In this document: positions 15,001 through 61,133 of the stretch, in pieces
Layout: every line of letters starts with the position of its first letter
How positions within the stretch are numbered: position 1 is the stretch's first letter
Assembly (NCBI GenBank): GCA_027490155.1
Contig: JAIXYP010000067.1
Span: forward strand, 1 to 64,000
Source: Cytophagaceae bacterium
GTDB lineage: Bacteria > Bacteroidota > Bacteroidia > Cytophagales > Flexibacteraceae
Reading direction: 5' to 3'
DNA length: 64,000 nucleotides
Translations under genes and position numbers: made by a program
The notes under the pieces: model-generated
Told to the model about the DNA's origin: nothing
Database searches by the model: none
Seen by the model: only the letters and a program-made list of their open reading frames with translations

Positions 15001-15201
15001 TTCTCAGAAACCACTACCTATGGGGATATCGTCTGTATCGACGCCAAAGGCAGACATGTGTTTAAGCAGCAAGTCATGCTTCAGGCAGGCAACAATACCA
15101 TCTCGTTAGACCAACACCTCAATGACTTGCCGGCAGGCGCCTATAGGGTTCAACTCGCAATTGATGGACAACTATACACACAGGTATTTGCCAAGCAATA
15201 G
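3004..15201 (+). CDS. giant repetitive T9SS-secreted surface protein
   Basis: 4065 residues. A long signal peptide (about residues 1-36, ending LALAS) is followed by a Thr/Ser/Asn/Gly-rich beta-repeat protein, probably a long beta-helix or stacked solenoid. At least four copies of a GNWSxxxxW...P...VIIPSG motif start the major blocks (near residues 40, 1280, 2320 and 3000). More than a dozen copies of a NYNGTGAQTI...YxNLxxSG motif occur, mostly in the C-terminal half. A fibronectin-like linker (VTWVTTAEINTHHFVIERS) and a type A T9SS sorting domain (LWPNPALHRLSL ... LPAGAYRVQL, from about residue 3980) end the protein. T9SS would move it across the outer membrane and probably attach it to the cell surface; adhesion or matrix function is inference. 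No catalytic domain is recognised. The gene stands alone with a long non-coding tail after it. Confidence 0.9.
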   Translation: MFRTVRRVSLIIQVYTRLVVILASLVSLMPTLALASTKTWLPSTTGTFSWTTGTNWSGSTVPIAGDLVIIDPAAVQTISNLPTISLGSLTIGGINNRAITFSAVTATLTVTGETNLSTSVSFATGITVAYLGNSTQIGGLVQYRSSLSCNANFTVTGSSTQLEFIAANLNFSGTGTLNITNGARLINSSSGTALININTIDLSANGNYRHNRNGGVVPTATWGSSTLCEIVGITNAPPTGINQSFFDLTWASSQTANINLNIGDGFQVRDDFSVTRTTNSNTAANGINGNSAIGFALTLYSSAEAVDRVFSIGKNFNLIAPNAASSNVFVVLNAASGTNRITFNIGGNFSLRGDLNQTISPRFLQSTASKPCTVNVAGSYFQGARSEYHILDPGTTVGCVGTLSVAGDAYVGTAAVADNASNNALLAGIWWSSASAASNNNNATLVVGSTSIAGRLIQATCGGYLGIVGGNTANTGNTVRFTTYGDVLLNGIGLNSANTPRPALAGYYTSNTVNSANITIEALAVNGTGGNFLHASSGAFLPFFANGATRFAGSSSAFVLNLAGNLISTTTSEHNYLYTSGTGNSFTATVGGALSYQNTVARFISSNANDNTSTISAAGINIISGTTTFSDNGGTAAGCSLVVTSSKPLTIGGGTVNFQNNTSTATTNVLDVTTAGIVQSGGIFNMYPSTVASLPATLKLNGDVRLSNGTLQSAASVPVSTRRGQLLFASGSNLLTIASAGFVYNSFVDVAIANGSSTRLTMSSRLAGNLINDGSLLWPTGNNAALLTITGNISGNGLLNMSGAAHQLTIQGPGPHSFDTIINSGTGSTVCYNSSLPQTLAGANYERLILTGAGAKTLGSSTMVASDFIIQSGGNLTLSATGSKLVLNGVVTTNTSSIIAGAGVADSITVNGLVQTAIFDLGTSAIAHVLRFNNDLYGATINATNNTLGTVIFGKNGNQSIPGGTYNNLIIDGSGVKTTNGATLLVNTFLTLRGGQLLANLENDPSVSASSSGLRITTGGTIVMDGGVCGTSPRVVGTNGFYNLTYNQSATSGYEINPAAGVLATLTVNGTLTLGNNIAVGDAANSGTIVLGTAGRIRLGNRNLTYTASTAPAITGTFGQTNAYIETNGVGNLIFNLGTTRANYNFTYPLFAGYYSPLTINSTAGTVSASGLTIRAIANRPSATGTNAGALHYLLSTTGAWAGLTGTIDIGYNTAVVTGTQASYVMRQYNLTAGGGWQTLAGTNAGSAPLFTHTASISTSFVAAANYILAIGESAAFPATIYYSRQTGNWSANSSWSTASHAGSAATVPPTGAVVVIGAGHVITADVSNINLSQANIVTNGTLDLMETNNQNLGEVNGDGTLRFTANTAEPTWPAGDFTRFFGSGSNSTVSYAGSGSYNLPTAIIGYNNLTITGGGTKQGPAIAITINGILTLGSATVTTTFAATGDLYFTNGGTVINVPNGNFASLNHLSGTAFFTGNGIQNVVAGNNGQLFFMRNIDIAAQSILRLTGGSSNNQFNIQGNLRVASTSSVGFQTDANFSLVTFIANSTVSAPNGSTLGFTSVSIASNVTVINSASWSLRRDILNNGTLNNTAGTLYWGCPTCISGTIYSTTGTATTTFNNVEQTINTFMANWSMSFTVNGTYSMSRYTSGGTDMGALINADGANLTFAFNHLNIANGTLATEQPSALSTTHTFSIRGNLTIGAGVLNLVSTNGLLVNNANLNILDPTAKRYLIGNTITTNVVTVRNIVVSSGTGLVDVSGTGSITLTGSLTQNSANRIQMVSTPVANTTLRILFVSGTSVEINGSGTGTIILPNISIGTSGTRLTLRRPITITGSQTSGGSAWNTRMLGLEGGLTTNPVFNTNGQVITINGQGEIVSASLDNGTVPGNSDWIIAPNGSLTLLGNIFFGKLTMGGNMTISNDLFCRSTDVDFEENTITLNTGTELRVSGVTRTKHPNGLFVSTGNASVVGGTYSDGGNGMRVDYLADQPQAVTARWYTRLGLHGGIKLLSGGVTAQDSLFCTTRVRFGTTALNFVINGVMRAATGTFDMTGANHNLFCRGRSHDLGTLITSIDYTSTVTYDGGLNCNIFSSPNYRNLTISSSTKTMSGPATVSGTINLTSGTVNFGNNDLTLGLSPQQPGSLTYTAGMFVLNGTGAFNRWYGISGLPTSAAGNTAFYPIFSTAGENRNVYIYFNSANALAVGGVIGIAQGQETGIVALSPTFNDGGQLQENRTRSFWSFASPIQPPVLANGGAMAVQVYGQGTCAPVSNAAAQDLRLNKVGSAVGTNLPVALASTTLPIVERTSLALADLLGTFYITGSATNLPANIWRAIANGNWSSGAVWDIGVQPASDAVVIIPSGRTVSLTANASCRSVLVESGAIFTTANNKVTLGAGSISTINGTLNTANTSASPIFGTATSTFDVVTNVAPTPPVMALGNTSTVNYNGTTAQFVQPLQYNNLTISGSNRSGNVVFETTGIISVRGQFTTTATFTTGNAYQTASSSFRFNGISSQVYAGSFNFHNLDISCAGGMNMNGTIGVTGDLTGTTNNLTENNCSTFNFNGTGNQTIPAKSYCNLRVTNGSRTVTLSSTGTILVSGTFTPTYSATYVSTGSTFDYSIGGPVVNFQYNNLVISNSTTRVLDNSTNGPGAILIAGSFTLPDATFLVTTGSTVTYNGTGAQTILGGITYHNLNVINDRGAANIAIGNGSTVTAQGNLNLSFTTTGTQAISTIALPSTSTEQSITLNNSGFFQNLILSGSIKNLLSNVRFDGGSTITLNANVRLNGFDFIMGNTSSSLFCNFAASPTGQLIYNSTGALVRVYPNGLTLPAITAPSGANQHFNFPIANFASQTRQVYLINSTSRASTSTWSIRIAYNEGNNTQVAPNNVTVNSQLINRITRGSWRITSGSVGLTNLGLAFASFGMFNVTNSNLLRAVSGSDNVPASIAVPAGTWSGTGTFPSYLLTSTNVLGAADFNDDFYFIGSENTNFGNAYVANLPGGSWDESTTWLPLGIPDASAGVIIPSGTNVTLSQNQAADYLDVQTGGTLDLQDKQLTLGNASLHNLNGTVMTQSPCLIGCVNAAFPSRATTDFAALGTGSTVVYNGSGAQTITNITYQNLTSSGGTRTIAGTLTIRGTFLAGNSVYNTANSTVIFSSTSATVIPPCNYFNLTRTGSANTIFGTTGANGNVIGIAGVLTLGTGTLVTTGSTIEYNGAGSQTIDARTYNNLIISGNRSGGTITFPALAPIRITGAYSNTATNSNYSNLNSTIDFASASVQTIAPGGYFNITNTGNGPRVLSSTGVISIAGSWQRGTGAYTIGTSTINYNGTGAQSIAGGPYFNLMLSNARGSSTVSLNPEAFSIANDFTNVASFTGSGAFSTAGSTIDFTKSTAAVIPGFSYFSISNSGNGPRTLTGTVSIAGAFSTGSGTYTTTGSTVNYNGAGAQTIAQIDYNNLTVSGARTGSPAISFGAGTTGIAGALSLTATGATYSIPSSSTVHFNGASNQLNNAIVPGVSFANLTFSGSGTKSFSVPFSMQNNTTLTLAGTALLNNATNNLTCGSTINIIRAGGSISSAPVFGSVVNLGYTTASQTVGNEWPSSASLLGSVTINVGSGQTVSLASASVPVVNNTINLTSGALDIRPATSLTLNGTVTTGSGTLTGGSTAVLTIGGTSGGNVGTLAFTTGSNTLQDFNINRRGGAANLVLGSDLQVLNAVTFATNATTRILTGSFTLDLSTTGQAINEAAGRYVVGRLRSTRTVNNTVSPITFGNVGAALSNCTNCNLGTVVITRTAGPGVSLSANGNRSINRWWRIMPTQQPTSALTLSLSWNSDDDFYASPATYAKVWRSTNLGSTWTHNKNLPPLVFANRSVSLPVTAFSDWTIATDNNPLPVTFSSVAAKKIGMEQARVTWVTTAEINTHHFVIERSVNNLFFERVGTVQATGNSNTNIYAFTDTWTTAEKVYYRIRAIDFDNQETISPTVVLKSKTGSVDFQLWPNPALHRLSLICFSETTTYGDIVCIDAKGRHVFKQQVMLQAGNNTISLDQHLNDLPAGAYRVQLAIDGQLYTQVFAKQ

Positions 15202-45205: not shown

Positions 45206-46021
45206 TCATTTAAACGATTCTTGCTTGTATTTAAGAAAATTATTCAGCTGTAAAAGGTTATCACCTTTTGAAAACCGCTCACGGTGGCTATCATCAACCT
45301 TTGCATGGCATGCAATGCATAAACATTGTAGGTTAGATGGACTATTATCTATTTTGTTATTGTTAATATGGTGAAGATGTATATACAGATAAAGAGCTGG
45401 CTTTGGAATAAAGCCACATGCCTCACAAGTGTATCCTTTAGACTCACGTACCGATTTACTAACAGTTGACCAGTCTTTGGTGTAGCCATTAATATCCACT
45501 TCGATAGCGGATGAGCGATGGGTGTTTGAGGAATCAAAATCTGACTCCTCTTGTATAGTGCCAAACTCGCTAGTTGTGGTGTAATTAACATTCTTTAATT
45601 TAAGGCAATTTTTACATGAATATAAATTCTTATTTTCTAACAATGCATTTTCATTGTCAATATCGATAACATCAACTAACTTTGCGTTACTAATTACGTA
45701 ATCTGATTCAAAGCGATTTTTGGCAATAAAACTCTGAATGGTTTCACAGTTCGCTATGTGAAATTTAGGCAAATCTTTATGCCTTGCAACATAATATCGC
45801 TTTTTGTAAACATATGCTTTAATTAGGCGACCTTCAAACTTGTATTTAATACCGTCTTCATCAAAAACAACATTCTTAGCGTCAATAGCTTTTTGTAAAT
45901 CCTCCTTTACGACCCTAAAGGTTTGTTTATCAACACGAGGGAAACCTAAGTCATCCAGCAGTTTTGCCAAACCAGCAAAATCATGTAAAGGTGTTGACGA
46001 GTTGTTTGAATTTGAGTCCAT
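45206..46021 (-). CDS. zorE: HNH endonuclease, ZorE-like effector of a Zorya system
   Basis: 271 residues. The C-terminal HNH domain has zinc cysteines C199-x2-C202 (TCEACGF) and C235-x2-C238 (CIACH), HH at 217-218 (IHLHHIN), Asn230 (SPSNLQ) and His239. A central CKNCL pair (Cys136, Cys139) and KFHIANCETIQSFI match an N-terminal domain found with other HNH nucleases. The start codon lies two bases after the stop of the MotB-like gene, and the MotA-like gene is two bases before that. In type II Zorya the motor proteins ZorA and ZorB go with an HNH nuclease ZorE, thought to nick or degrade invading DNA. The gene is AT-rich compared with its flanks, suggesting transfer. Confidence 0.78.
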   Translation of the reverse strand: MDSNSNNSSTPLHDFAGLAKLLDDLGFPRVDKQTFRVVKEDLQKAIDAKNVVFDEDGIKYKFEGRLIKAYVYKKRYYVARHKDLPKFHIANCETIQSFIAKNRFESDYVISNAKLVDVIDIDNENALLENKNLYSCKNCLKLKNVNYTTTSEFGTIQEESDFDSSNTHRSSAIEVDINGYTKDWSTVSKSVRESKGYTCEACGFIPKPALYLYIHLHHINNNKIDNSPSNLQCLCIACHAKVDDSHRERFSKGDNLLQLNNFLKYKQESFK

Positions 46022-46023
46022 AA

Positions 46024-46731
46024 CTATTTAGCCAATAAAGAGTCGATAACAAGGTCAGAAGTAGTAACAATGCGGATTTCAACCCGTCTAGACTTCTCAA
46101 GGTCAGGCTGTTTTCCAGAAGAATAAACTAGTTGTTTGTCAGCATCTAGCATCCGGCCAAAAGATAAACCATTGGCCGTAAACCAGAAATCAAGTCGGAG
46201 TTTTTGAGCATCACCAAGCCGTTTATATGCCTCTAGATTACGCATAAACTTCATTACGCTTGTTGAACGCATTTGTGACAACTGAAGGTTACAAAGATAG
46301 TTGTCCTGGTCTGGACACTCCACACGTTTAGATATGTCCGTATGACCCTCAATTCTTATCTCTGCAATTTTTTTGGCATACTCGTCCTTAGATACGATTG
46401 CTAAGTATTTTGCAAAAAACTCTGCAAGTATTTGTTCAAACCGTGGTGTCAACTTTGACTCACCAAGAGGGAATAATACCGCAGGATTGGTGAACCGAAT
46501 AGATAAATCATTATCGATCTCCATTTCCCATGCTTGTTTATTATTTTTGAATACCTCATTAAGCTCTTGATATATTTTGAGCTTAGACTCTTGATAGTCC
46601 TTGACAATTCTGTCTTGGTCTTTTTTTTGCTGCTCAACGAGAATCATAAACGCTGCTGATATAAACAGGAACACAACCATCAGCAAGGTCATAAGATCCG
46701 CGTACGGGATCCAGAAGCTTTCCTTTTTCAT
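46024..46731 (-). CDS. zorB: MotB/OmpA-like protein, ZorB-like
   Basis: 235 residues. A single N-terminal helix (LMTLLMVVFLFISAAFMILV) carries the conserved MotB-type Asp12 in PYADLMT, the expected ion-pathway residue. A short coiled linker leads to an OmpA/MotB peptidoglycan-binding domain with the hallmark EGHTD (His130), LSQMRSTSVMKFM and RRVEIRI. Known ZorB dimers sit in a ZorA pentamer and use the proton motive force. The gene overlaps neither neighbour but is separated by only two bases on each side, so translation is probably coupled. The lone MotAB-like pair with a nuclease, not flagellar genes, supports a defence role. Confidence 0.82.
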   Translation of the reverse strand: MKKESFWIPYADLMTLLMVVFLFISAAFMILVEQQKKDQDRIVKDYQESKLKIYQELNEVFKNNKQAWEMEIDNDLSIRFTNPAVLFPLGESKLTPRFEQILAEFFAKYLAIVSKDEYAKKIAEIRIEGHTDISKRVECPDQDNYLCNLQLSQMRSTSVMKFMRNLEAYKRLGDAQKLRLDFWFTANGLSFGRMLDADKQLVYSSGKQPDLEKSRRVEIRIVTTSDLVIDSLLAK

Positions 46732-46733
46732 AA

Positions 46734-48215
46734 CTATCGTTTATTAGCTGCTATAACCATACGTTGAATACACTGGTCAAGACTTGATAGCGTATTGCTG
46801 AGCCGCTCATAGAACTCCCCATTATATCTAGTTGCAGCATTTGTCAATTCAGCATTGCTTTCCTTGATCATTGAGGCAGCATTTCTCATCTCATTGCGAT
46901 ACAATTCCCATGCTGTTGACTTCATGTTCGACACCTCGTTAAGTGCAACGACTAGATTCTCTGCGGCTTTCCTAAACTCGATTTCTTTGGCTACCCAGTC
47001 TTGCAAGTTCTTGGTCGTCGTTGCGTAAGCAGCTGAAGCAGTGTTATTGGTCTTAGCAGCCTGCTCAAGGTTTGTTGCAGCCTTGTTGAGGGTGCCCGAT
47101 TCAACGAATACCTCTTTCAGCTCGTTTGTGGCCTTCCTGAGGTTGCTAGAGTCGTTTGTTATTTCTGACAAAGATTTGCCAACAGACATTAGGTTGGTAT
47201 CTACACCTGCAAGGTTCTTCTGAACCTGTACGAACTGAGCGGTAAGAGCACTGATTTGATCCTTGTTTTCCCGCTGCCAGTCTACCATGTTCTTAACGCT
47301 GTTGTTAAGCTCTGCAAAGTTTTCCTTTACCAGCTTGTTGATTAGCTCGGTCATTTGCTCATTAAACTGAGCAGTAGCCTCCTTCATTACCTCAACAAGT
47401 GCCTCTGTGTTACTTTTCTTGAGCAAATCGGTAAATTCATCAAACTTAACCTCAAGCAAATTGTTGCTGGCATGAATACTTCGAACAACTTCCTCGATGT
47501 TTTTACCAATAATTTCCTCCTGCTTGGATAGTACGGCTAGGATACTGTTACCAAGATTAAGATTGTCACTGATCGACTTTTCTGTACGAGCACTTTCTGC
47601 TTCAAACCGCTTAGCAGACTCATACTCAAGGTTTTTGACAGCTGTCTCTACATGATCCATTGAGCTTGTCATTTGCTTCGTTTGGGTGTCGCTATCCAGC
47701 TTAAGGTCGTTTATCCCTTTCACCAAATCTCTCAAAGCAGTTGTTTGAAGATTGCTTTGCGTAGCATCTGAGTCCTTAAAGTAGGCAAGAAGCTCCCCGA
47801 GCTGGCTTGACATCATCGATAAGGCTGAAAGCTCATCTGACGAACGTTTGGGTTTATTGGGGTTGTTGTCTATCCTGTTTTGTACGCCCTCAGTCCACTT
47901 CTGAAAAACAATTAGACCGACTATACCTGCGATTGTCGCAATAAACGAAATCTTGAGACCGTCAAGTAAATCTGATATACTCGTTTGGGTATTATTGATG
48001 TCAAAATCCCATAAACCCAGTACGATACCAAATGCTGTTAGTCCAATACCAACCGTTGGGAAAAGTGCGGGTAGACTATCGAAAACGTACTTACTGCTAA
48101 GTAATCCACGCTTTCCATCAGGATCATTTAGCTCTGACTTTTGGTAGCTCATAATCGCCATTATGGCAAAAACAATACACAAAAAAAATATTACTGGTAT
48201 GAAGATTAGTTCCAT
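46734..48215 (-). CDS. zorA: MotA/ExbB-like protein with long coiled-coil tail, ZorA-like
   Basis: 493 residues. Three hydrophobic segments are visible: IFIPVIFFLCIVFAIMAIM (1-22), LFPTVGIGLTAFGIVLGLW (~50-70) and ISFIATIAGIVGLIVF (~88-105). The motif FPTVGIGLTAFGIVLGL is the MotA/TolQ/ExbB pore signature. From ~110 to 490 it is an uninterrupted coiled coil, far longer than in TolQ or ExbB. This long cytoplasmic tail is the hallmark of ZorA, where it is thought to pass the phage-sensing signal to the effector. First gene of the zorA-zorB-zorE operon. Confidence 0.82.
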   Translation of the reverse strand: MELIFIPVIFFLCIVFAIMAIMSYQKSELNDPDGKRGLLSSKYVFDSLPALFPTVGIGLTAFGIVLGLWDFDINNTQTSISDLLDGLKISFIATIAGIVGLIVFQKWTEGVQNRIDNNPNKPKRSSDELSALSMMSSQLGELLAYFKDSDATQSNLQTTALRDLVKGINDLKLDSDTQTKQMTSSMDHVETAVKNLEYESAKRFEAESARTEKSISDNLNLGNSILAVLSKQEEIIGKNIEEVVRSIHASNNLLEVKFDEFTDLLKKSNTEALVEVMKEATAQFNEQMTELINKLVKENFAELNNSVKNMVDWQRENKDQISALTAQFVQVQKNLAGVDTNLMSVGKSLSEITNDSSNLRKATNELKEVFVESGTLNKAATNLEQAAKTNNTASAAYATTTKNLQDWVAKEIEFRKAAENLVVALNEVSNMKSTAWELYRNEMRNAASMIKESNAELTNAATRYNGEFYERLSNTLSSLDQCIQRMVIAANKR

Positions 48216-48799: not shown

Positions 48800-51700
48800 T
48801 TACTCCTTCACCAATTTAGTCACCCCAAACCCAAGTGCCTGTACCATGTAAACACCTTTAGCAAGGGCCGATAGATCTAGGCCAAGCTCTGTAGTATTGG
48901 CAGGCATAGTGGCGGTTAGGACTACTTGGCCCACTGCGTTGCTGATGCGGAAGGTGGTCGCTTGGCTACTTGGTGTGGCAAGTTGCAGCAATACCTTGTT
49001 GCTAGCTGGGTTAGGTGTCAATAACACCTTGTTGCTGATCGTGGCACCTAGGCTAGTAACTCCTGAAGGATTAACCACTAGGCTAAAGCGACCATTGTTG
49101 GCACCTTGCACGGCACTGAAGCTGTAGCTTGCTGCATCCGCAACCAAAGTGCTGATACCAGTTTGGTTATCCAATAGGTAAATTGACCATTGCGGATTGC
49201 TAAGGCTAGCCAATCCCTCAAATGTTATGGTATAAATACCAGCCGATGGTGCCGTCAATGCTAGTGGATAGGCAGTTGTGACAGTTGGGATCGGCTCGGC
49301 CAAGATGGCCATTGGGGTGCTGCTGTTCAGGAACGAGAGGTTAACCCCGGTTGCGGAGGTCATCTTGTTGGCCTCGAGATTTTGGTCAAAACCAGCGGTT
49401 GCTGTGGCATCCCAACGAAGGGCTATTTGGTCTTGCAGGTTAGGGTTATTGACACCAACAATATTCAATTTAATCACATCAGAGACTGAGCCTTGACGCT
49501 GTATAGCAGGATTACTAAACGCATCAATTGCAGACTCATTGACACTGAGGCTAGCGTTAGCATTGTTGGCCCAAACCATAAAGCCTTGGCCCGAAGGAAT
49601 CAGATTGGTGCCACCATTGACGCCTACTCCGTTGATGTAGGTGGCATTGTTGCTGAACTTGTGGCGATAGATATAGGTGGCGTTATAGACGTTGGTTTTG
49701 GTCCAGGCACCACTTGCATCCCAGTCAATGGTAGCGGCGTAGGGGTTAGCAATCAAGTTCCAACCATTTTCGGTAGTCGTACCGGTGACAGCACAATTGG
49801 CACCAGTGCAAAACAAAAGCGGGAAGGTATGGGAGCCAGACTTAGGTGCACCAGAGGATTTCCAGAGCCCCGCGGCACCAGTGAAGAACTCTGCCGTCCG
49901 GAACCAAACACGGTGACCAACACCCACCGCAGCGGCTTGGGTTGGCCCTGTTGGCTTTTTGTATCCGCCAGCACCAACACCTGTGTAGAACGGATCAAAT
50001 GATGCGATGGAAGTCCCCGTTGGCGTGGCCTGATTATAGGTGCCGATAGCATACGGGTTGTTGGCCGACCAGAGATTAACATTTTGGCCTTGTGTCTGTG
50101 CACCTACCAAGACCCAGGCACCTCCACCAGATGCTAGGCTAGGGGCCATGTACCGCTCGACAGTGAAGTTGGCAGCATTGGCCATGGTACCACCATCGGG
50201 CCACAGCTGCGCCGTTTGGCTTGCTGTTGATTTGAGGGTTACACGATTGTTGTTAAGGTCAAATGTATTGCCACTAAGGGCCAAGATATTGGTAACGTCA
50301 AGGTCAACCTCCGTTTTGGTTTGTCCAAATATCATCAAGACTTTAGCCGCAAACGGGCTCCCTTTAATGATAGCAGGGTTAAGCGGTCCGCCTCCAATTT
50401 GCAATGCAGCCAGTCCTGAGCCGGAAGTAATGCTACCTTGGTTATGGAGGATATTTGTCACATAAAGGCCGTCAGACTGGATGTTGTTAAATAGAGTAGC
50501 ACTAGGGCTAATCAGGATTGAGCGGATAACTGTACGGCCAGTAAGTGTCACCACAGCACCTGGTCCTATCGTAACGGAGTCCAGAAAAGTGGGGACGGTG
50601 CCTGTTGACCAGTTGGTAGCAGATGTCCAGTTTCCTGTGCCGCTAAAAACAAATCCTGATCCGCCTGTTACTGTTACAACAGCACCATCAGACACTGCCG
50701 AGGTACAAGGACCTGTTATCGTCTGGACGGTATAAAGGCCACTAGTGCTTACAATGATCGATTGGGTAGTGGCATTGTTAGACCAGAGATAACTAAACCC
50801 GGCCGGCGCAGTTAGCGTCACAGAGCCACCGGCCCCGAAGGTGGTTGGGCCGCTGGCCGAAATGGTTGGCTTGCTCGGAGGGGAGGTTATGGTTACAACT
50901 GTCGCAGTGGATACTCCAGAGGTGCAGCCTGCTGTTATGGTCCGGACTGTGTAGTTGCCAGTGGTTGTGACATTGATAGCGCGTGTGGTTGCGCTGTTGG
51001 ACCACAAGTAGCCGAAGCCAGCTGGGGCTGTAAGGGTTACTGAACCACCAGAGCAGAACGATGTAGGCCCACTTGTGGAAATGATTGGGGTGCTAGGCGG
51101 GGTAACCACCGTTACGGTAGTGGCAACAGATACAGCTGAGGTACAGATACCAGAAATCGTCCTGACGGTGTAGCTGCCACTAGTGTTTACCTCTATGGAT
51201 TGCGTTGTCGCATTGTTGGACCAAAGATAGCTGAATCCAGTTGGTGCTGTCAGAGTGACAGATCCGCCCACGCAGAAAGTAGTTGGACCGCTGGCAGTGA
51301 TACTAGGACGGCCTGGTGGAAGGAATACCATGACCGGCATGGCAGCTGAAATTGCCGAGGCACAACCCCCACTATAGGTATTGACTGTATAGTTGCCACC
51401 GATCTTGACCGTGATTGATTGTGTTGTATCTCCGTTTGACCATGCGTATTTGTAGCCAGCAGGTGCTGTAAGTGTAACAGAGTCACCATGGCAAAAGTTG
51501 ATTGGTCCACTAGCCGTGATGACAGGGGTTGGAACGGTACTTACTGTAACGACCGTAGGGTCTGAAACCGCCGAAGTGCAACCATCCAAAACTGTCCGGA
51601 CCGTATAGTTGCCCGATGTCGTAACATCAATAAATCGGTTTGTGGAGCTGTTTGACCACAAGTAGCTATATCCTGCTGGTGCCGAAAGCCTGACAGAGCC

Positions 51701-54700
51701 GCCTGGACAGAAAGTTGTTGTGCCGATAGCAACTGTGATGGTAGGCGCAGCCGCAACCTCCGCGGTTACAACTACAGGGGCTGATGCAGCTGATGTACAA
51801 CCAGCCGCAATCGTCCGGACGGTATAGTTGCCACTTGTTGTCGCGACGATGCTTTGGGTTGTCTCATTATTGGACCATAGGTAGCCAGTCACCACATCGG
51901 CAGGGGCTATTTTCCTGACCCTAATAAAATCAACAATAAAAATATTGGTAGTACTGTCAGCTCCTACGCTTCTAATCTGTGAGAACTTGGCATCAGCAAT
52001 CGGGCCATCAGTAGTTCCGCTTGTCGTGCCAGCAATGGTCGTGACATCACCACTTGGGGTAATTTTCCGGATGAGTGGATTATCTCCAACAATTAAGTTA
52101 CCAATCCGGTCGATAGCGATGGATGAAGGGATACTAAACTTTGCAGCAGTCCCGTTGCCATCCACAGTGCCGCTTGTGGAGCCAGCAAAGGTGCTAACTA
52201 ATCCGGCTGGTGTGATTTTCCTGATCTGGAAGTTGTTTGGGTCAGCGACATAGACATTTCCGCTTGCATCAACGGCTACATCAGTAGGGAACCTAAACCT
52301 AGCTGCTGAGCCTAATCCGTTAGTGCTGCCAGATGATCCTGCAAGACCTGCGAAGGTGCTAACTAGGCCACCAGGTGTAATCTTACGGATGGTGTGATTT
52401 TGGTAATCAACAGCATAGATATTACCACTCTGATCCATGGCCATAGCGACGATTGAAGAGAACTTGGCAGCCGTTCCTTGGCCATCAGTATTACCAGTAG
52501 TGCCAGCCCCTACAAAAGTGCTTACGTCCCCACTCGGGGTGATTTTGCGTATGACGTAGTTGTCGGCATCCGCAACATAAAGGTTACCTGCGGCATCGAG
52601 GCAAACTGCTGTTGGACCTTTGAACCTAGCCGTTGCAATTGGTCCATCTACATAACCTGATGCGGTACCAGTGATTGTACTAACTACACCAGCAGGCGTA
52701 ATTTTGCGTATGCGGTGGCCTGATTGGTCCGGAATGTACATGTTGCCAATGCGGTCTATGGCAAACTTTCGTGGGTTTGTGAACCTAGCGATTTGACCAT
52801 CCCCATCTGTTGAACCTAACTCGGTAGCTGAACCGGCATAGGTGCTAACGGTTGCTGTTGCAGCAGGCACTGATAGGTTTACCGATTTGCCCAAGCAAAA
52901 CGTCGTAGGCCCACCAGCCGAAATAACAGGGGTTGATGGTGTATATAGCCGTACGATTATTGCCGCTGACACCGCTGAGGTGCATCCGTTCGAAATTGTC
53001 TGGACAGAATAACTGTCCTGGGTGTTGACTACGATGGATTGTGTGGTCGCATTGTTGGACCATAGGTAGCTGAACCCTGCTGGGGCGCTTAGCGTAACAC
53101 TGCTACCGGCGCAGATGGTGATAGGGCCAGAGGCAGTGATTGTTGGTGTCACAACTGTCTGAGTGACAACAATGGGGTCCGAAGAGGGTGATAAGCAACC
53201 ATTGGCCGAGGTCCGGACCGTGTATGAACCAGTTGCATTAACGTTAATTGACTGTGTAGTTGCATTGTTAGACCACAAATAGGAAAAGCCAGCTGGAGCA
53301 GTCAAAGTCACTGTCCCGCTTGCCTCGCAAAGATTGGTAGCAGTAGTTGGGGTGATAGCTGGCTTGCTTGGTGTACTGACAGCTGTCACAACAATAGGCT
53401 GAGACGTGGCCGAGGTACAGCCGTCAACAATAGTACGCAGGGTATAGGTGCCTGCGGTGCTTACAAATGTGGACTGGGTCGTTTCGTTATTTGACCATAG
53501 ATAGGTGAAGCCAGCAGGGCCAGAAAGGTTGACACCGCTTCCGGAGCAAATTGCGGTAGAAGCGTTTGCAGAAATTAGTGGGGTGGTAGGGCAGGAAGAT
53601 TTGGAAATGGCGGCAAATCCGTATTGGCCACCCCCTGCGGTTGTCGTATAATTGCCCCCAGCATAGACCGTAGTGCTATTTTGGGACAAGGTATAGATAT
53701 CACTGTTTGGGTTGGGATTCCAGCCCCGAGCGAGCCCTGTGACTGAGTCAATGGCCGCGATATAGTTACGGGTGATGCCGCCAACGGTACTGAAACGCCC
53801 GCCAACATATATGGTGCTGGCCCCAGCCATAACTGCTGATACGCCATCATTAATATTTGGGTTCCAGCTAGTGGTTGTGCCCGTTGTGGCATCAATGGCT
53901 GCTAGGCGATTGCGTGTCTGCCCCCCCATAGTGGTGAAAATCCCACCAGCATAAACCAATGGACCCTTGACGGAAATGGTTGTGACCCAGCTTCCGGCGT
54001 TTGGGTTCCAGCTGGAGGCTGTGTTTGACGACGTGCTAAGGGCTGCAATATTGTTGCGTGTCTGCCCACCTACCGACGTAAATGCGCCTCCGACATAAAC
54101 CGTTGTGCCATTGAGTACCAATGAATAAACCTCTCCGTTTGCATTCGGGTTCCAGGTTGTGGCGGCACCATTCGATAGGTTAATGCCTGCAAGTCGGTTT
54201 CTGGTTGTTGAGCCAGCGATGGAGGTAAAATTACCCCCAGCGTAGAGGGTTGTCCCGCTAATGGCCATGGTGTTGACCGTGCCGCCAATGTTCGGGTTCC
54301 AGGTCGTGAAGTTGCCCGTTACCGAGTCAATGGCTGCAATCCGGTTGCGGGTGGTGCCTCCGATGCTTGTGAACGAGCCTCCGACATAGACAGTACCATT
54401 ATTGACCAAGATCGTTTCAACATCTGCATTAGCATTGGGGTTCCAGCTAGTGGGTTGGCCAGTGGTTGCGTTTAAGGCAACAAGTCTGTTACGTGTCTGC
54501 CCGCCAACCGACGAAAAGGCTCCTCCCATATAAATGGACGTACCACTGATCCCCAAGGTGTTTACGTAGGCATTAGGGTTGGGGTCCCAGGTGGAAGCTA
54601 GCCCGGTGCTTTGGCTTAGGGCTGCTACGAAGTTCCGTGTTTGCCCGCCGATGGTGTTGAAATATCCGGCTGCATATACAGTTGTCCCTGACACTTGGAG

Positions 54701-55735
54701 GTTGTAAACCTGACTATTAGCATTAGGATTCCAGCTAGTAGCTAGGCCAGTCGTGACGTCAAGTGCTGCAATATTGTTGCGTGTTTGCCCGCCAATGGTT
54801 GTGAACGTGCCACCTATATATAGGGTAGAACCCGATAATGCCATTGTGGATACTACAGGATTGGCACTTAGGGTTGTGCTAAAGCTAGTAGCAAGCCCTG
54901 TTGTGGCATCGAGTGCCGCAATCCGAGTTCGGCTCTGCCCCCCGATGGCCGTAAATGTCCCAATGACATAAATGGTGTTTCCATTGGCAATAATCGACGA
55001 GACGGTCAGGTTCGCATTCGGGTTCCAGGAGGTAGCAAGGCCTGTTGTGGCGTCAAGGGCTGCAATGCGGTTGCGGGTTTGCCCACCGATCGAGGTAAAG
55101 GTACCACCAACCAAGATGTTAGAGCCAGAGATTGCTATCGACATGATGGCACCATTTGCAGCTGGGTTCCAACTCTGCACAGCGGCAGTGCTCTCGTCAA
55201 TAACAGCTAGGCCACTGCGGGTTTGTTGACCTACTACTGTAAATGACCCAGCAATATAGATTTTACCATCATTGATGACGATGGAATTGACTGCACCACC
55301 AAGGATGTTGGCATTCCAGTCCATATCGAGCGTGTAGTCAGACAAGAGGTGGGCCATATAGCTCCGGGCCACGTTGCCAATCCGGGTAAAGTGGCCACCA
55401 ATGTACCAACCTCCGTTCCCATCTGGCACCGCTACCGTGACCGAGCTGTTAGGTTTCGGAATGGCTGTCGTGAGTGGCTGACCAGTTGTGAGGCTAACCG
55501 GCGAAGTAAACCCAGTATATGGGCCTACAGAAGTGAAGTTGCCCCCAAGGTAAATGGTATTGCCAGATCTCTGGATAGCATTGACACTCCCATTGGCCAT
55601 CCAGAGTGTTGTGTCAATAGTCTGGCCAGTGGTCATCTGGCTGGTGAGGCCTACTAGCAATGCAAAAAGCAGCTTAGTACACCATTGGCTTACCAACCTT
55701 GCTGACAAGGCTTGTTTCGTCCGGTTCAGGTTCAT
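48800..55735 (-). CDS. T9SS surface protein with delta-60-type propeller, Ig-like repeats and a nested NHL propeller
   Basis: About 2311 residues from the ATG at 55735, which starts the signal peptide directly (TKLLFALLVGLTSQMTTGQ); an ATG at 55786 adds 17 residues. In order: about 14 units of ~47 residues (IYVGGxFTSIGGQTRNRIAALD..T....SWNPN), nine Ig-like units of the FCxGGSVTLTAPAGFSYLWSNNATTQSI type (cited in parts), and inside the fourth of these a six-unit NHL propeller (about 52860-51893). A GNWTSATNWSTGTVP block, the shared GWNLIANPY...IDWDASG module and a type A sorting domain (LLTPNPASNKVLL ... KGVYMVQALGFGV) complete it. Secreted and attached at the surface; binding function inferred. 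Confidence 0.88.
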   Translation of the reverse strand: MNLNRTKQALSARLVSQWCTKLLFALLVGLTSQMTTGQTIDTTLWMANGSVNAIQRSGNTIYLGGNFTSVGPYTGFTSPVSLTTGQPLTTAIPKPNSSVTVAVPDGNGGWYIGGHFTRIGNVARSYMAHLLSDYTLDMDWNANILGGAVNSIVINDGKIYIAGSFTVVGQQTRSGLAVIDESTAAVQSWNPAANGAIMSIAISGSNILVGGTFTSIGGQTRNRIAALDATTGLATSWNPNANLTVSSIIANGNTIYVIGTFTAIGGQSRTRIAALDATTGLATSFSTTLSANPVVSTMALSGSTLYIGGTFTTIGGQTRNNIAALDVTTGLATSWNPNANSQVYNLQVSGTTVYAAGYFNTIGGQTRNFVAALSQSTGLASTWDPNPNAYVNTLGISGTSIYMGGAFSSVGGQTRNRLVALNATTGQPTSWNPNANADVETILVNNGTVYVGGSFTSIGGTTRNRIAAIDSVTGNFTTWNPNIGGTVNTMAISGTTLYAGGNFTSIAGSTTRNRLAGINLSNGAATTWNPNANGEVYSLVLNGTTVYVGGAFTSVGGQTRNNIAALSTSSNTASSWNPNAGSWVTTISVKGPLVYAGGIFTTMGGQTRNRLAAIDATTGTTTSWNPNINDGVSAVMAGASTIYVGGRFSTVGGITRNYIAAIDSVTGLARGWNPNPNSDIYTLSQNSTTVYAGGNYTTTAGGGQYGFAAISKSSCPTTPLISANASTAICSGSGVNLSGPAGFTYLWSNNETTQSTFVSTAGTYTLRTIVDGCTSATSQPIVVTAVSTPSKPAITPTTATNLCEASGTVTLTAPAGFSYLWSNNATTQSINVNATGSYTVRTSANGCLSPSSDPIVVTQTVVTPTITASGPITICAGSSVTLSAPAGFSYLWSNNATTQSIVVNTQDSYSVQTISNGCTSAVSAAIIVRLYTPSTPVISAGGPTTFCLGKSVNLSVPAATATVSTYAGSATELGSTDGDGQIARFTNPRKFAIDRIGNMYIPDQSGHRIRKITPAGVVSTITGTASGYVDGPIATARFKGPTAVCLDAAGNLYVADADNYVIRKITPSGDVSTFVGAGTTGNTDGQGTAAKFSSIVAMAMDQSGNIYAVDYQNHTIRKITPGGLVSTFAGLAGSSGSTNGLGSAARFRFPTDVAVDASGNVYVADPNNFQIRKITPAGLVSTFAGSTSGTVDGNGTAAKFSIPSSIAIDRIGNLIVGDNPLIRKITPSGDVTTIAGTTSGTTDGPIADAKFSQIRSVGADSTTNIFIVDFIRVRKIAPADVVTGYLWSNNETTQSIVATTSGNYTVRTIAAGCTSAASAPVVVTAEVAAAPTITVAIGTTTFCPGGSVRLSAPAGYSYLWSNSSTNRFIDVTTSGNYTVRTVLDGCTSAVSDPTVVTVSTVPTPVITASGPINFCHGDSVTLTAPAGYKYAWSNGDTTQSITVKIGGNYTVNTYSGGCASAISAAMPVMVFLPPGRPSITASGPTTFCVGGSVTLTAPTGFSYLWSNNATTQSIEVNTSGSYTVRTISGICTSAVSVATTVTVVTPPSTPIISTSGPTSFCSGGSVTLTAPAGFGYLWSNSATTRAINVTTTGNYTVRTITAGCTSGVSTATVVTITSPPSKPTISASGPTTFGAGGSVTLTAPAGFSYLWSNNATTQSIIVSTSGLYTVQTITGPCTSAVSDGAVVTVTGGSGFVFSGTGNWTSATNWSTGTVPTFLDSVTIGPGAVVTLTGRTVIRSILISPSATLFNNIQSDGLYVTNILHNQGSITSGSGLAALQIGGGPLNPAIIKGSPFAAKVLMIFGQTKTEVDLDVTNILALSGNTFDLNNNRVTLKSTASQTAQLWPDGGTMANAANFTVERYMAPSLASGGGAWVLVGAQTQGQNVNLWSANNPYAIGTYNQATPTGTSIASFDPFYTGVGAGGYKKPTGPTQAAAVGVGHRVWFRTAEFFTGAAGLWKSSGAPKSGSHTFPLLFCTGANCAVTGTTTENGWNLIANPYAATIDWDASGAWTKTNVYNATYIYRHKFSNNATYINGVGVNGGTNLIPSGQGFMVWANNANASLSVNESAIDAFSNPAIQRQGSVSDVIKLNIVGVNNPNLQDQIALRWDATATAGFDQNLEANKMTSATGVNLSFLNSSTPMAILAEPIPTVTTAYPLALTAPSAGIYTITFEGLASLSNPQWSIYLLDNQTGISTLVADAASYSFSAVQGANNGRFSLVVNPSGVTSLGATISNKVLLTPNPASNKVLLQLATPSSQATTFRISNAVGQVVLTATMPANTTELGLDLSALAKGVYMVQALGFGVTKLVKE
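51893..52860 (-). repeat. six-unit NHL propeller inserted in an Ig-like domain
   Basis: Six units of about 53 residues with FxxPxxVAVDxxGNVYVADxxNxxIRKITPxGxVSTFAG-type sequence. The Ig-like domain is split: SVNLSVP before it, GYLWSNNETTQSI after it. Confidence 0.8.
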
Positions 55736-55803
55736 ATTCAGGTTATTCAGGCAAAAGATGAGTTGTGCTGCAGTCATACTTGACATCCAGACACAAAGAC
55801 GAA

Positions 55804-55834
55804 CTAAAGTATATCATTTTTGGGGCGATGTCAA
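55804..55834 (-). promoter_or_regulatory. putative promoter of the 48800 T9SS gene
   Basis: On the minus strand, TTG (55834-55832) is followed after 20 bases by TACTTTAG (55811-55804), close to the Bacteroidota pattern TTG-N19/20-TAnnTTTG. Transcription would start about 60 bases before the proposed ATG at 55735. Confidence 0.45.
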
Positions 55835-56107
55835 GTTTAATGGGCTTTTAATCATGGCTGGAGAACATGGGTTTCATCATGGATGCTATTCAATCACCGT
55901 AAATTGGGTATTCGTCGATGTTTTTAATTTATTTGTCCGATAATTTACCAAATTAGGTTATTCGGAATTTGGTGTATTGAGGCCCTAATTTTGATAATCC
56001 TTTGCAAGCACCGTCGGCTAAGGTGCATACAAGTAGCTCAATGCTGATGGACTAAGAGTATTTGTCATTATGAGTCAGCAACAAGATTTTTAGGTAGGAT
56101 ATAAACA

Positions 56108-56137
56108 CCAACGGGCGCCCGCAAGGGCGCCCGTTGG
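56108..56137 (-). terminator. hairpin terminator of the 56160 T9SS gene
   Basis: Same 13-base arms as at 48744-48773 (CCAACGGGCGCCC / GGGCGCCCGTTGG), loop GCAA, then TGTTTAT in the direction of transcription. Confidence 0.75.
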
Positions 56138-56159
56138 CATACTCTTAAAATAATACTCG

Positions 56160-59100
56160 TTACTCCTTCACCAATTTAGTCACCCCAAAGCCAGGGGCCT
56201 GCACCATATAAACTCCTTTAGCAAGGTTGCTAAGGTCTAGGCTGACCTCTGTGCTATTGACTGGCATGGTGGCGGTCATCACCACTTGGCCCACTGCGTT
56301 TGTCAGGCTGAAGGTTGTTGCCTGTTCGGTTGGTTTGGCCAGCTGGATGGTGGTGCTATTTAAGGCCGGATTCGGTGCCATCAGGATGAGGTTCTGGACA
56401 GCACTACCGAGGCCAGTTACGCTGTTCGGGTTCAGGACCACGCTGAAGCGACCGTTGTTCGCACCTTGCACCGCACTGAAGGAATAGGTGGCGGCATCAG
56501 TCACCTGTGTTGTGATATTGGTTTGATTGTCCAGCAAATAGAGCGACCAATGTGGATTGCTCAAGCTAGACAGTCCCTCAAATGTGATGGTATAGATACC
56601 AGCCGATGGTGCCGTCAATGCCAGTGGATAGGCTGTTGTGACAGTTGGTTGTGGCTCAGCCAAGATGGCCATTGGGGTGCTAGTTGCTCCGCTGTTATTG
56701 ACAAAGGCCAAGTTTACACCCATTGGGTTATTCATCTTTGGGGCCTCTAGTTTGCGATCCAAGCCAGTAGTTGCTAGGTTATCCCAGCGGATGGCGATTT
56801 GGTCAGCTTGCTGGTTGCTGCTACGGATATTGACCTTCAAAACATCAGACAGTGCAGCGGCGCGGGTAAAGGACTGCACATCGCTCGAGATCACAGCCAC
56901 GGAGGCTATGAGGACAGGGTTGGACGAAGAGGCCCAAACCATAAATCCTTGTCCAGATGGGATGTAACGGCTACCTCCATTGACCCCTACTCCGTTGATG
57001 TAGGTGGAAGTGTTGGCTGCTTTGGAGTTGGCGATATACGTTGCGTTGAAGATATCGCTCCGGACCCATCCATTGCTCGCATCCCAGTCGATGGTGCCAG
57101 CAAATGGATTGGCGATTAGGTTCCAGCCATTTTCGGAGGCGTTGCCACCACCTGCACAGTTGCTGCCAGCACAATATTTCAAGGTCCAGGTATGGGTCGT
57201 GATCAGCGGAGCACCATTGGTGCGCCAAGTTGCGGCACCTGTGCCAAAAAACTCTGGTGTCCGGAACCAAACACGGTATCCTTGCCCAATAGGTGCTGCT
57301 ATGGTCGGTCCGCTCAGTTTTTTGTAGCCATTGGCCCCTGATAGCGGGTAGTTAGGGTCATACTCATAAAGCGAGGCACCTGTTGCGACGTTAAGGTTGG
57401 TATAGGTTGCAGCTGCGTAGGGGTTGTTCTGTGCCCAAACGTTAACGTTCTGACCAGTGGTCTGCGCACCTACCCAGATCCAGGCACCGGTAGCAGTGGC
57501 AAGGCTTGGGCTATGGTATCTTTCCACGACAAAGTCCTGCCCATCAAGTAAATTTCCGCAGGCCAAGACCAGCGATGCCGTGCCATTGGCAGTTGATTTG
57601 AGGGTGATGCGTTTGCCGTTGGCGTTGAAGGTAAAGCCTTGTAAACCAAGCGAGTGGTATAGGGTCAGGTTGGTTTCCGTTTTAGCATGTCCCCGCAGGA
57701 CGATGGAGTTGAGCGTCAACGGATTGCCTTTGATTAGGCCGATTCGTGAAGTCCCACCTTGGCCAATAAACAATGCATTGAGCTGCCCAGGCACGGATGT
57801 AACCGTCCCTTGGTTGTCAAATACATCGGTTACTTTTAGTTGGTTATCGTTCCGGAAGTTGAGGGTGGCACCCGGCAGGATGGTCAACGAACGCACAGTT
57901 TGATCCGCATTAAGGTTCAGGACAGCACCAGAGGCGATCGTGGCCGAGTCCGTATCAGTGGGCACCGTCCCGGTTGACCAGTTAGCAGCCGAAGACCAGT
58001 CGCCAGTACCAGTGAAAACAAAGCCATTAGCAGCGGCATTGACCGTAACGACCGTAGTAGCAGAAACTGCAGAGGTACATCCACTAGCGATAGTACGGAC
58101 GGTATAGCTGCCACCTGTTGTCACGTTGATGGACTGGCTAGTCTCGTTGGTTGACCAGAGGTAGCTAAAGCCTGCAGGAGCTGTCAGAGTTACAGATCCA
58201 CCTGCTGTAAACGTCGTCGGGCCGCTTGGGGTTATGGTTGGCGTGCTTGGTGGGGTGTTGACTGTTACAATCGTCGCAGCAGAAACTGCTGAGGTACAAC
58301 CACTTGCAATGGTCTGTACGGTATAGCTACCACCAGCAGTTACATTAATTGATTGGCTGGTCTCGGTGGTTGACCAAAGGTATGTGAAACCAGCTGGTGC
58401 TGTGAGTGTAACTGAGCCGCCAGTACAGAAAGTCGTTGGGCCACCAGCAGAAATGGTTGGGGTAGCTGGCGGGGTATTTACAGTAACAACTGTAGCGGCC
58501 GAAACAGCCGAAGTACAACCATTGGCAATCGTGCGGAGGGTATAGCTACCACCAGCAATTACATTGATCGACTGGGTGGTGGCTCCTGTGCTCCAGAGAT
58601 AACCTGACTTGACCACCCTAATAAGATGGTTGTTAAAGTCAGCTACAAATAGGTTTCCTTCCTGATTTACGACGACACCAGTTGGTCCGTTGAACTCTGC
58701 TACAGTCTCGTCTCCGTTAGTTAAACCTTGTGTGGTACCAACAAAAGTTGAAACAAGCCCTGAGGTGGTTATTTTCCTGATTCGGTTATTGCCTTTGTCT
58801 GCCAAATAGATGTTGTTATTGGCATCAATGGTCAAGCCGCCAACCTGATTAAACTTGGCAGCAGAGCCAACACCATCACTGAATCCCTGGCTGCTACCTG
58901 CAATTGTAGTAACAACGCCAGTAGGCGTGACTTTTCTTAATCGGTGTGATCCGTAGTCAGAGACGATCAAATCGCCATCCATATTGATGGCAATACCGTA
59001 AGGTTGCGAAAATTGGGCTCCTGTACCAGTGCCATCGGCCGTCCCCTGGGTAGAGCCTGCCAAAGTAGATACTAGCCCTGCTGGGGTTATTTTTCGGATT

Positions 59101-61133
59101 AAGTGGTTTTCAAAGTCCGTAACATAGAGATTACCACTGGCATCAATCGCGACACCAGATGGCACCGCAAATTGTGCTGCGGTACCTGTACCATTAACGC
59201 TACCCTTCGTGGCATTGCCAGCAAAAGTCGAAACCAGTCCTAGAGGCGTTACCCTCCGGATGCGGTTATTACCAGGGTCGGCCACATAAACATTGCCACT
59301 TTGATCAATGGCCATACCACCAGGACCATCAAATTTGGCCGCAGTGCCACTTCCCTCTGCAAATCCGAAAACACTACCCGCTAGTGTAGAAACCTGACCA
59401 GCAGGGGTGATTTTACGAATGCGATGGTTGGTTACCTCGGACACATATAGGTTTCCGGAGGCATCAACGGCTAGATTACCGGGGTTAGAAAACTGAGCGG
59501 CGCTTCCTGAACCATTCGCCGTTCCTTGTATACTTCCAGCAAAAGTACTAACCTGAGATAACATGGCTGGCCCAGTTAGTGTTACCGATCCGCCAGTGCA
59601 TAAGGAAGTTGGGCCGCTTGCGGAAATTGTCGGAGTAGCTGGTGTTGCTACCGTCACCACAATAGGGGTAGAGGCGGCAGAGGTACAACCGTTGGCAATC
59701 GTACGCACAGTGTAGCTACCACTAGCTGTTGCTACAAGGTCGGCTGTGGTTGCGCCATTGCTCCAAAGGTATCCAGTGATTGTAACAGGTTGGGTGATCC
59801 TCCGAATCTTTTGATTGTTAGCATCTGCAACATAAACAGTACCGCTTGCATCCACTGCTACACCTGTCGGGAAACTAAACTTAGCTCCAGATACAGGGCC
59901 ATCTACGTATCCACGTGTTGAACCAGCCAAGGTGCTTACCAGTCCTGTTGGGCTGATTTTGCGGACTCTATCATAGTTTATCGCCTGGACAGTTTGAAAA
60001 TTAAATTCAAAGAACGGATCGGCTACATACAAGTTACCTTCAGTATCCCGGGCAATACCTTGGATCTGATCAAACATAGCAGCTGTCCCTTGGCCATCTG
60101 CAATACCTTTAACTCCCCCGGCTACGGTACTAACCAGTCCTGTTGGGCTAATTTTCCTGATTCGCCAGTTTCCAAAATCGCTGACATATACGTTGCCAGC
60201 CGGATCTAGGCAGAGGTGTATAGGTGCCCTAAATTTGGCAGCTGCCCCTTGCCCATCCGCATAGCCGGATGTTGAACCAGCTAGCGTGCTTACCAATCCT
60301 GTTGGGCTGACAACCCGGATGCGAGAGTTAAGGAAATCAGCAACATAAACATTACCTGCAGCATCAACGGCCACACCGCTGGGGGAGTCAAACATGGCAG
60401 CTGCCCCTTGGCCATCAGCAAAACCTTGTGATGAGCCAGCTAAAGTAGTAACGAACCCTGTCGGGCTAATTTTGCGGATGCTATGATTGCCCCGATCTGC
60501 TACATACACATTTCCTGCAGCATCAACGGCCACACCTTTGGGTCCGGCAAACTTGGCTGCAGTTCCTTGACCATCTGCAAAACCTTCACTTGAGCCAGCA
60601 AAGGTGCTGACCATCCCTGTCGGGTCGATTTTGCGGATGAAACTATTGAGTTCATCAGCTACATAGACATTTCCTGCTGCGTCAACAGCGATTCCTTGAG
60701 GATTGTTAAACTGAGCGCTGGTTCCTAGTCCGTTAGCAAACCCTTGTGCGGAGCCGGCATGGGTGCTTACAGTTGCAACAGTACTTTGGGCGGTGACGGA
60801 CAATGTCACCGAGCCACCGGCACAGAACGTTGTTGGGCCGCTGGCGGTGATTGTGGGTGTGGTAGGCGGTGTACAAGTCGTAGAGGCATTCCGAACTGCA
60901 ATTTTGGTTTGGTTTTGCCCACCAAAGCTGTTGAATTGTCCCCCTAAACAGATGGTATTGCTCGACCTGACCACGCACTTGTTGGGACCATCAGGATACC
61001 AAAAGGTATTGTCCATTGTCCAAGCCTGTGCGCTCAGAATGGTTAATAGTAGCATGCTACACAGCAAGGTGGCATGGTACATAGTTTTCGTTTGGGCCTG
61101 ATTCCAAGTCATGGCCTTCTTTATCCAGGTCAT
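56160..61133 (-). CDS. T9SS surface protein with two NHL propellers nested in Ig-like domains
   Basis: 1657 residues. A signal peptide (ATLLCSMLLLTILSAQAW) is followed by a single remnant of the delta-60-type repeat (CLGGQFNSFGGQNQTKIAV), then four Ig-like units. The first two are each interrupted by six NHL units (residues ~118-449 and ~526-842). Ig units 3 and 4 are uninterrupted. A GDWSSAANWSTGTVP block, the GWNLIANPF...IDWDASNGW module and a type A sorting domain (LMAPNPALNSTTI ... KGVYMVQAPGFGV) end it. It is a paralog of the 48800 gene: the last ~30 coding bases and the terminator are nearly identical. Secreted, surface-attached; function unknown. Confidence 0.88.
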   Translation of the reverse strand: MTWIKKAMTWNQAQTKTMYHATLLCSMLLLTILSAQAWTMDNTFWYPDGPNKCVVRSSNTICLGGQFNSFGGQNQTKIAVRNASTTCTPPTTPTITASGPTTFCAGGSVTLSVTAQSTVATVSTHAGSAQGFANGLGTSAQFNNPQGIAVDAAGNVYVADELNSFIRKIDPTGMVSTFAGSSEGFADGQGTAAKFAGPKGVAVDAAGNVYVADRGNHSIRKISPTGFVTTLAGSSQGFADGQGAAAMFDSPSGVAVDAAGNVYVADFLNSRIRVVSPTGLVSTLAGSTSGYADGQGAAAKFRAPIHLCLDPAGNVYVSDFGNWRIRKISPTGLVSTVAGGVKGIADGQGTAAMFDQIQGIARDTEGNLYVADPFFEFNFQTVQAINYDRVRKISPTGLVSTLAGSTRGYVDGPVSGAKFSFPTGVAVDASGTVYVADANNQKIRRITQPVTITGYLWSNGATTADLVATASGSYTVRTIANGCTSAASTPIVVTVATPATPTISASGPTSLCTGGSVTLTGPAMLSQVSTFAGSIQGTANGSGSAAQFSNPGNLAVDASGNLYVSEVTNHRIRKITPAGQVSTLAGSVFGFAEGSGTAAKFDGPGGMAIDQSGNVYVADPGNNRIRRVTPLGLVSTFAGNATKGSVNGTGTAAQFAVPSGVAIDASGNLYVTDFENHLIRKITPAGLVSTLAGSTQGTADGTGTGAQFSQPYGIAINMDGDLIVSDYGSHRLRKVTPTGVVTTIAGSSQGFSDGVGSAAKFNQVGGLTIDANNNIYLADKGNNRIRKITTSGLVSTFVGTTQGLTNGDETVAEFNGPTGVVVNQEGNLFVADFNNHLIRVVKSGYLWSTGATTQSINVIAGGSYTLRTIANGCTSAVSAATVVTVNTPPATPTISAGGPTTFCTGGSVTLTAPAGFTYLWSTTETSQSINVTAGGSYTVQTIASGCTSAVSAATIVTVNTPPSTPTITPSGPTTFTAGGSVTLTAPAGFSYLWSTNETSQSINVTTGGSYTVRTIASGCTSAVSATTVVTVNAAANGFVFTGTGDWSSAANWSTGTVPTDTDSATIASGAVLNLNADQTVRSLTILPGATLNFRNDNQLKVTDVFDNQGTVTSVPGQLNALFIGQGGTSRIGLIKGNPLTLNSIVLRGHAKTETNLTLYHSLGLQGFTFNANGKRITLKSTANGTASLVLACGNLLDGQDFVVERYHSPSLATATGAWIWVGAQTTGQNVNVWAQNNPYAAATYTNLNVATGASLYEYDPNYPLSGANGYKKLSGPTIAAPIGQGYRVWFRTPEFFGTGAATWRTNGAPLITTHTWTLKYCAGSNCAGGGNASENGWNLIANPFAGTIDWDASNGWVRSDIFNATYIANSKAANTSTYINGVGVNGGSRYIPSGQGFMVWASSSNPVLIASVAVISSDVQSFTRAAALSDVLKVNIRSSNQQADQIAIRWDNLATTGLDRKLEAPKMNNPMGVNLAFVNNSGATSTPMAILAEPQPTVTTAYPLALTAPSAGIYTITFEGLSSLSNPHWSLYLLDNQTNITTQVTDAATYSFSAVQGANNGRFSVVLNPNSVTGLGSAVQNLILMAPNPALNSTTIQLAKPTEQATTFSLTNAVGQVVMTATMPVNSTEVSLDLSNLAKGVYMVQAPGFGVTKLVKE
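58608..59558 (-). repeat. second six-unit NHL propeller inside an Ig-like domain
   Basis: Six units (LAVDASGNLYVSE..., ending NHLIRVVK). The Ig-like sequence before is SVTLTGPAM and after is SGYLWSTGATTQSI. Confidence 0.8.
59787..60782 (-). repeat. first six-unit NHL propeller inside an Ig-like domain
   Basis: Six units (IAVDAAGNVYVADELNS..., ending NQKIRRITQP). The Ig-like sequence before is SVTLSVTAQ and after is TGYLWSNGATTADL. One unit carries an extra ~10 residues (FFEFNFQTVQAINYD). Confidence 0.8.

Follow-up and report, generated by a model that had tools for sequence, protein, structure and literature searches.

NHL propellers nested at a fixed loop of Ig-like domains in type IX-secreted proteins of a Cytophagaceae bacterium

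Two neighbouring frames with split Ig-like domains

The window, that is the whole stretch of 64,000 nucleotides analysed here, carries two neighbouring open reading frames on the minus strand, ORF A and ORF B, both intact, which carry uninterrupted Ig-like domains as well as Ig-like domains that contain an NHL propeller (Table 1). In a Pfam scan, NHL repeats (PF01436, cut-off 20) scored 257.5 bits in ORF B and 53.8 bits in ORF A, and the Ig_7 family (PF19081) reached 31.0 bits over the whole of ORF B against a cut-off of 27.3. All 14 uninterrupted domains that were scanned matched Ig_7 with an E-value of at most 0.1 (best 1.9e-5), and the split form matched the Pfam model weakly. Both proteins end in a sorting domain scoring above the cut-off of 23 (TIGR04183, 30.5 and 32.4 bits) and the host genome encodes SprA, a component of the T9SS translocon (2362.6 bits, cut-off 200), which identifies them as T9SS type A cargo.

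Table 1. Features of ORFs A and B and of the adjoining Zorya genes, in window positions
Feature	Position	Strand	Remarks
ORF A	48800..55786	minus	2328 aa; N-terminal DUF5122 propeller, 8 uninterrupted Ig_7-type domains, 1 Ig-NHL-Ig module, T9SS type A tail
Three uninterrupted Ig domains upstream of A1	52952..53581	minus	53387-53581, 53165-53362, 52952-53146
Module A1, Ig N-half	52871..52930	minus	PVISAGGPTTFCLGKSVNLS; strands A-B
Module A1, NHL propeller	51908..52849	minus	six-bladed
Module A1, Ig C-half	51767..51883	minus	YLWSNNETTQ...; strands C-G
Five uninterrupted Ig domains downstream of A1	50675..51745	minus	
ORF A, T9SS type A sorting domain	48836..49018	minus	
ORF B	56160..61133	minus	1657 aa; 2 tandem nested modules, 2 uninterrupted Ig domains, T9SS type A tail
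Module B1, Ig N-half	60798..60857	minus	
Module B1, NHL propeller	59796..60770	minus	six-bladed; blade 5 with ~12 extra residues
Module B1, Ig C-half	59655..59771	minus	
Module B2, Ig N-half	59574..59633	minus	
Module B2, NHL propeller	58611..59552	minus	six-bladed (AlphaFold2 model)
Module B2, Ig C-half	58485..58601	minus	
Two uninterrupted Ig domains downstream of B2	58047..58460	minus	
ORF B, T9SS type A sorting domain	56199..56378	minus	
ZorA2	46734-48215	minus	E 2e-107
ZorB2	46024-46731	minus	E 7.5e-74
ZorE2, HNH nuclease	45206-46021	minus	E 1.6e-69

The DUF5122 propeller with which ORF A starts is long (53642-55609, minus strand). ORF B has a stub of about 50 residues resembling the DUF5122 blades of ORF A (60870-61025, minus strand), as if such a propeller had been lost from it. 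ORF A is adjoined by a type II Zorya anti-phage locus (45206-48215, minus strand). Elsewhere in the window, a 4065-residue protein (3004-15201, plus strand) has a G8 domain and a sub-threshold match to a T9SS tail, and no Ig-NHL modules were seen in it.

Position of the insertion within the Ig-like domain

Each of the three propellers of the window interrupts an Ig_7-type domain after strand B (GGSVTL) and before strand C (YLWSN), the N-half ending in ...SV.LS/T and the C-half beginning with YLWSN/T. We built a 65-position HMM from uninterrupted Ig domains of the host genome; it was split at one constant place in all 15 modules of that genome (see below), the upstream flank covering only the first 20-31 positions in every copy and the downstream flank only those from about 20-27 to the end. 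When the split and uninterrupted domains of the window were aligned together with MAFFT, unguided, a single gap opened, between ...APA and GF.YLW. Expressed in Ig strands, the junction is the loop that joins strand B (SVTL) to the strand with the conserved Trp, strand C. Searched against PDB sequences, the Ig model returned weak matches to eukaryotic Ig domains only (E-value 0.07 and worse); in these, VTL falls within strand B and YxW within strand C, a numbering that agrees with a B-C junction.

An earlier sequence-only reading of this DNA had described NHL propellers within an Ig-like domain at a fixed GGSVTL/YLWSN point, and both the split HMM match and the alignment gap concur. It had counted six NHL units per propeller, and we likewise counted six blades in each of the three; its boundaries (51893-52860, 58608-59558 and 59787-60782) are off by tens of bases at most. 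The same domain was also said to occur uninterrupted elsewhere in both proteins, where we found ten such copies.

Predicted fold of the nested module

Module B2 was modelled with AlphaFold2 (mean pLDDT 95.6, pTM 0.88). Ten-residue blocks across its Ig halves reached pLDDT values of 80-97, from an input alignment that included uninterrupted Ig rows, which favour pairing of the two halves. The propeller has 24 strands in the model, the first of which (31-36) precedes blade 1, and the last blade lacks a fourth strand of its own. This fits a six-bladed, velcro-closed propeller in which strand 31-36 serves as the outer strand of the last blade. Since the first strand would complete the last blade, the two ends of the propeller should meet, as insertion into a single loop requires. 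The propeller matched solved NHL-type structures with Z-scores of 32-45 at ~20-35% identity, among them SUPPRESSOR OF QUENCHING 1, NHLRC2, TRIM71 and teneurins. Repeats scoring over the Pfam cut-off and a model with one six-bladed propeller together assign it to the NHL repeat propellers (PF01436).

Copies in the host genome and in related bacteria

Profile searches of the genome and of retrieved stretches yielded 15 complete nested NHL modules, spread over five contigs and six proteins. The window accounts for three of them, a single frame of 5144 residues for six, and three further proteins for two each. A full-length module profile, built from these same modules, matched all 15 end to end (E-values of 1e-166 to 1e-196). 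Besides these, one protein is truncated by the end of its contig, barely within an insertion, and the Ig halves of one copy (C6, L019) are badly eroded. The three propellers first noted are thus the right number for the window and a low one for the genome.

Two modules are also present in G100, a second species of the genus, in a 3824-residue frame that resembles a 3812-residue frame of the host, and the C36 module pair is kept in this species. Another genus of the family has one nested NHL module (Cytophagaceae bacterium H1_MAG_00022; G101 = L094). In the samples searched, the nested NHL version was seen only in the host genus and this one other genus of its family, and within genus and family we saw no propellers at unrelated points of homologous proteins. 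When 395 genomes of the class were searched for the NHL-Ig junction, no match spanned it outside the host genome; the other genomes matched either the blade part alone, ending near position 53, or the Ig part alone, starting near position 46-51. Apparent spanning matches in two genomes (G398 and G357) turned out on inspection to be plain Ig repeats. Among viral contigs, 67 Ig-like matches were obtained, none with a nested pair of N-half and C-half. In other Bacteroidota (L093, L095, L096 and L097), related NHL propellers precede intact Ig repeats instead of lying inside one, so nesting is not required for such propellers.

Other domains in the same loop

The same B-C point is occupied by a LamG domain (PF13385) in another protein of the host genome (C10) and in a genome of the same family (G027), and a Sphingobacteriales MAG (L100) has LamG at this point twice. 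A LamG-Ig junction profile matched 13 of the 395 class genomes, which belong to nine genera, and on re-examination the Ig N-half was present upstream of the insert in most of these loci. A Ferruginibacter MAG (L118) carries a Kelch propeller in the loop, also twice; the model of this module is moderate (pLDDT 71) with low confidence in the Ig part, and its best structural matches are Kelch domains. The Kelch junction gave one match in the same 395 genomes, to the Ig part only. Finally, a BetaGal_ABD2-like domain sits in the loop in G116. The sequence-only reading had envisaged the Ig-NHL-Ig junction as something to look for across Bacteroidota: other inserts do occur in the loop, LamG in many genera, but the NHL-Ig junction was not found beyond the family (395 class genomes).

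The junction is not a chance product, because 15 modules fit the full-length profile and three other types of insert share it in other bacteria. With unrelated domains in exactly this loop, it seems to serve as a general socket from which binding domains are held out. On balance we lean slightly towards the broader view that Ig_7-type repeats of Bacteroidota offer their B-C loop as a general, repeatedly used socket to at least four unrelated folds (NHL, Kelch, LamG and BetaGal_ABD2-like), and that this is an independently evolved T9SS counterpart of the split presenter domains of RTX adhesins.

Three further arrangements were seen. One protein of the host genome (L014 (C10), 3064-3975, minus strand) carries both NHL- and LamG-bearing split Ig domains. 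In L031 (G049, ORF 1-2748, minus strand), two NHL propellers seem to interrupt He_PIG (PF05345), a different Ig-like family, the first part of which precedes and the last part follows each propeller; judged from these matches, this is possibly the same principle in another domain family. In the second insert of L215 (G311), the usual starting motif of LamG seems to stand behind the domain (GLWHFDE after the LamG match), perhaps reflecting a circular permutation.

Origin of the copies

The module had been proposed to duplicate as a whole unit. The C10_1/C10_2 and C26_3/C26_5 pairs do look like module duplications, and the conservation of the C36 pair in the second species also speaks for this view; however, the nested Ig flanks are scattered over a poorly resolved tree of 65 columns instead of grouping as a single clade (10 label changes, 13.7 in shuffled data), and some are nearly identical to uninterrupted Ig domains. 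The C-half of C19_1 is 97% identical to an uninterrupted Ig domain of the same protein, and that of B2 is closest to an uninterrupted one as well (89%). The comparison of propellers with their flanks, which the same reading had put forward, is divided in the same way: propeller distances go with flank distances (Mantel r 0.49, p 0.002), but the flanks do not group together on the tree. These flanks, the two C-halves closest to uninterrupted domains, and the acceptance of four unrelated domain types by the loop across the phylum would all suit a different history, in which Ig repeats already present acquired the propeller or another insert time and again, as a cassette entering their B-C loop. 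We regard this as possible but doubtful, and it is compatible with the display function proposed below. The correlation of propeller and flank distances speaks against it, as do two residues that are commoner in nested than in uninterrupted C-halves, namely G (12/15 against 6/42, Fisher 8e-6) and A (7/15 against 0/42, Fisher 2e-5), at sites picked post hoc and in rows that are non-independent; moreover, homogenisation among tandem Ig repeats would yield the same tree.

Of 1092 comparisons of blades, 261 paired a blade best with the one of the same index, where chance would give about 182. Blade order is barely conserved between copies, and exchange of blades has blurred the histories of the propellers. 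The most economical origin is duplication accompanied by frequent exchange between tandem repeats.

Proposed function and alternative explanations

We consider it likely that each unit is a split Ig-like presenter domain that displays an NHL propeller on an Ig stalk at the surface, probably for multivalent binding. The chain would lay strands A and B of an Ig_7-type domain, exit via the B-C loop, fold an entire NHL propeller of six blades, in which the first strand closes the last blade and brings both ends together, and return to lay strands C to G. The uninterrupted Ig repeats in a row would form the stalk, from which the propeller would project sideways, and the proteins would leave the cell by the T9SS; given their type A sorting tails, they are probably anchored on the cell surface. 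That the propellers are carried by Ig repeats, as first suggested, is supported by the sequence anatomy.

The propeller could instead be an ordinary separate domain, like a bead on a string, with Ig-like halves that are unpaired linkers or degenerate leftovers, an arrangement to which the non-nested order of NHL then Ig in other Bacteroidota and the eroded halves of C6 (L019) would lend themselves. We hold this to be very unlikely, as the halves are better conserved among modules (mean identity 0.67 and 0.63) than the propellers (0.54), the N-half and C-half complement each other in 15 copies and also where the insert is unrelated, and the B2 model is confident in both Ig halves. It is also improbable that the nested propellers have no display role and stem from neutral expansion of repeat-rich proteins: although NHL nesting is confined to the host family in the samples searched, and in most C26 propellers the blades resemble one another closely (0.63-0.71), pointing to recent shuffling, the frames are open across 1657 to 5144 aa, the junction and the halves have been kept while the propellers drifted to ~54% identity, and Kelch, LamG and BetaGal_ABD2-like domains occupy this site too.

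Relation to known systems

A binding domain within an Ig-like fold is known from integrins, where the beta-I domain is inserted in the hybrid (Ig-like) domain; that is a eukaryotic receptor with a different insert. The closest parallel is found in RTX adhesins, whose split Ig-like domains are described as holding domains that bind sugars or peptides out from the axis (PMC10865825, PMC12077191). The earlier statement that no description of the arrangement was known therefore needs correcting. In both cases a complete foreign domain breaks the sequence of an Ig-like domain, and there are several inserts per protein; the strand order of the B2 model implies that here too the ends of the insert would lie together, and here too the insert would be held off a long axis of Ig repeats. 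The differences are that RTX adhesins carry a type I secretion signal whereas the host proteins use the T9SS, and that FrhA, an RTX adhesin, is split after one short strand (12 aa) whereas the host-type split follows strand B; the inserts of the split Ig domains of T9SS proteins in Bacteroidota are NHL or Kelch propellers, LamG or BetaGal_ABD2-like domains, in up to six copies per protein. No RTX repeat family was among the Pfam matches of ORFs A and B, which had Por_Secre_tail instead. Given this absence and the T9SS tail, our claim is that the modules work like RTX split domains, not that they belong to them. Taken with the RTX parallel, the anatomy of a long secreted protein with an Ig stalk and held-out domains makes it most likely that the propellers would act as multivalent extracellular binding (adhesion) modules.

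The component families are themselves known. Ig_7 (PF19081, Ig-like domain CHU_C associated) matches the uninterrupted repeats, but here another domain interrupts the Ig fold. NHL propellers (PF01436), including the teneurin-like NHL (PF25021), SUPPRESSOR OF QUENCHING 1, NHLRC2 and TRIM71, share the six-bladed fold, but those of the host are nested in a further domain; no RHS/YD family, such as would form a teneurin-like shell behind the propeller, was among the Pfam matches of ORFs A and B. In the open-licence literature, a limited sample, we found no description of NHL, Kelch or LamG domains inside T9SS Ig domains. The principle is already known; the T9SS setting, the B-C insertion point, the propeller cargo and the copy number are new as far as that literature shows.

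If the proposed display function is true, the modules would be a natural case of one Ig loop taking inserts of ~150 to 340 residues and of four different folds. The junction (strand B, foreign domain, YLWSxG) would likewise be a sequence signature by which to recognise binding domains in giant surface proteins exported by the T9SS, few of which have known ligands; the split-domain rule already serves this purpose for RTX adhesins.
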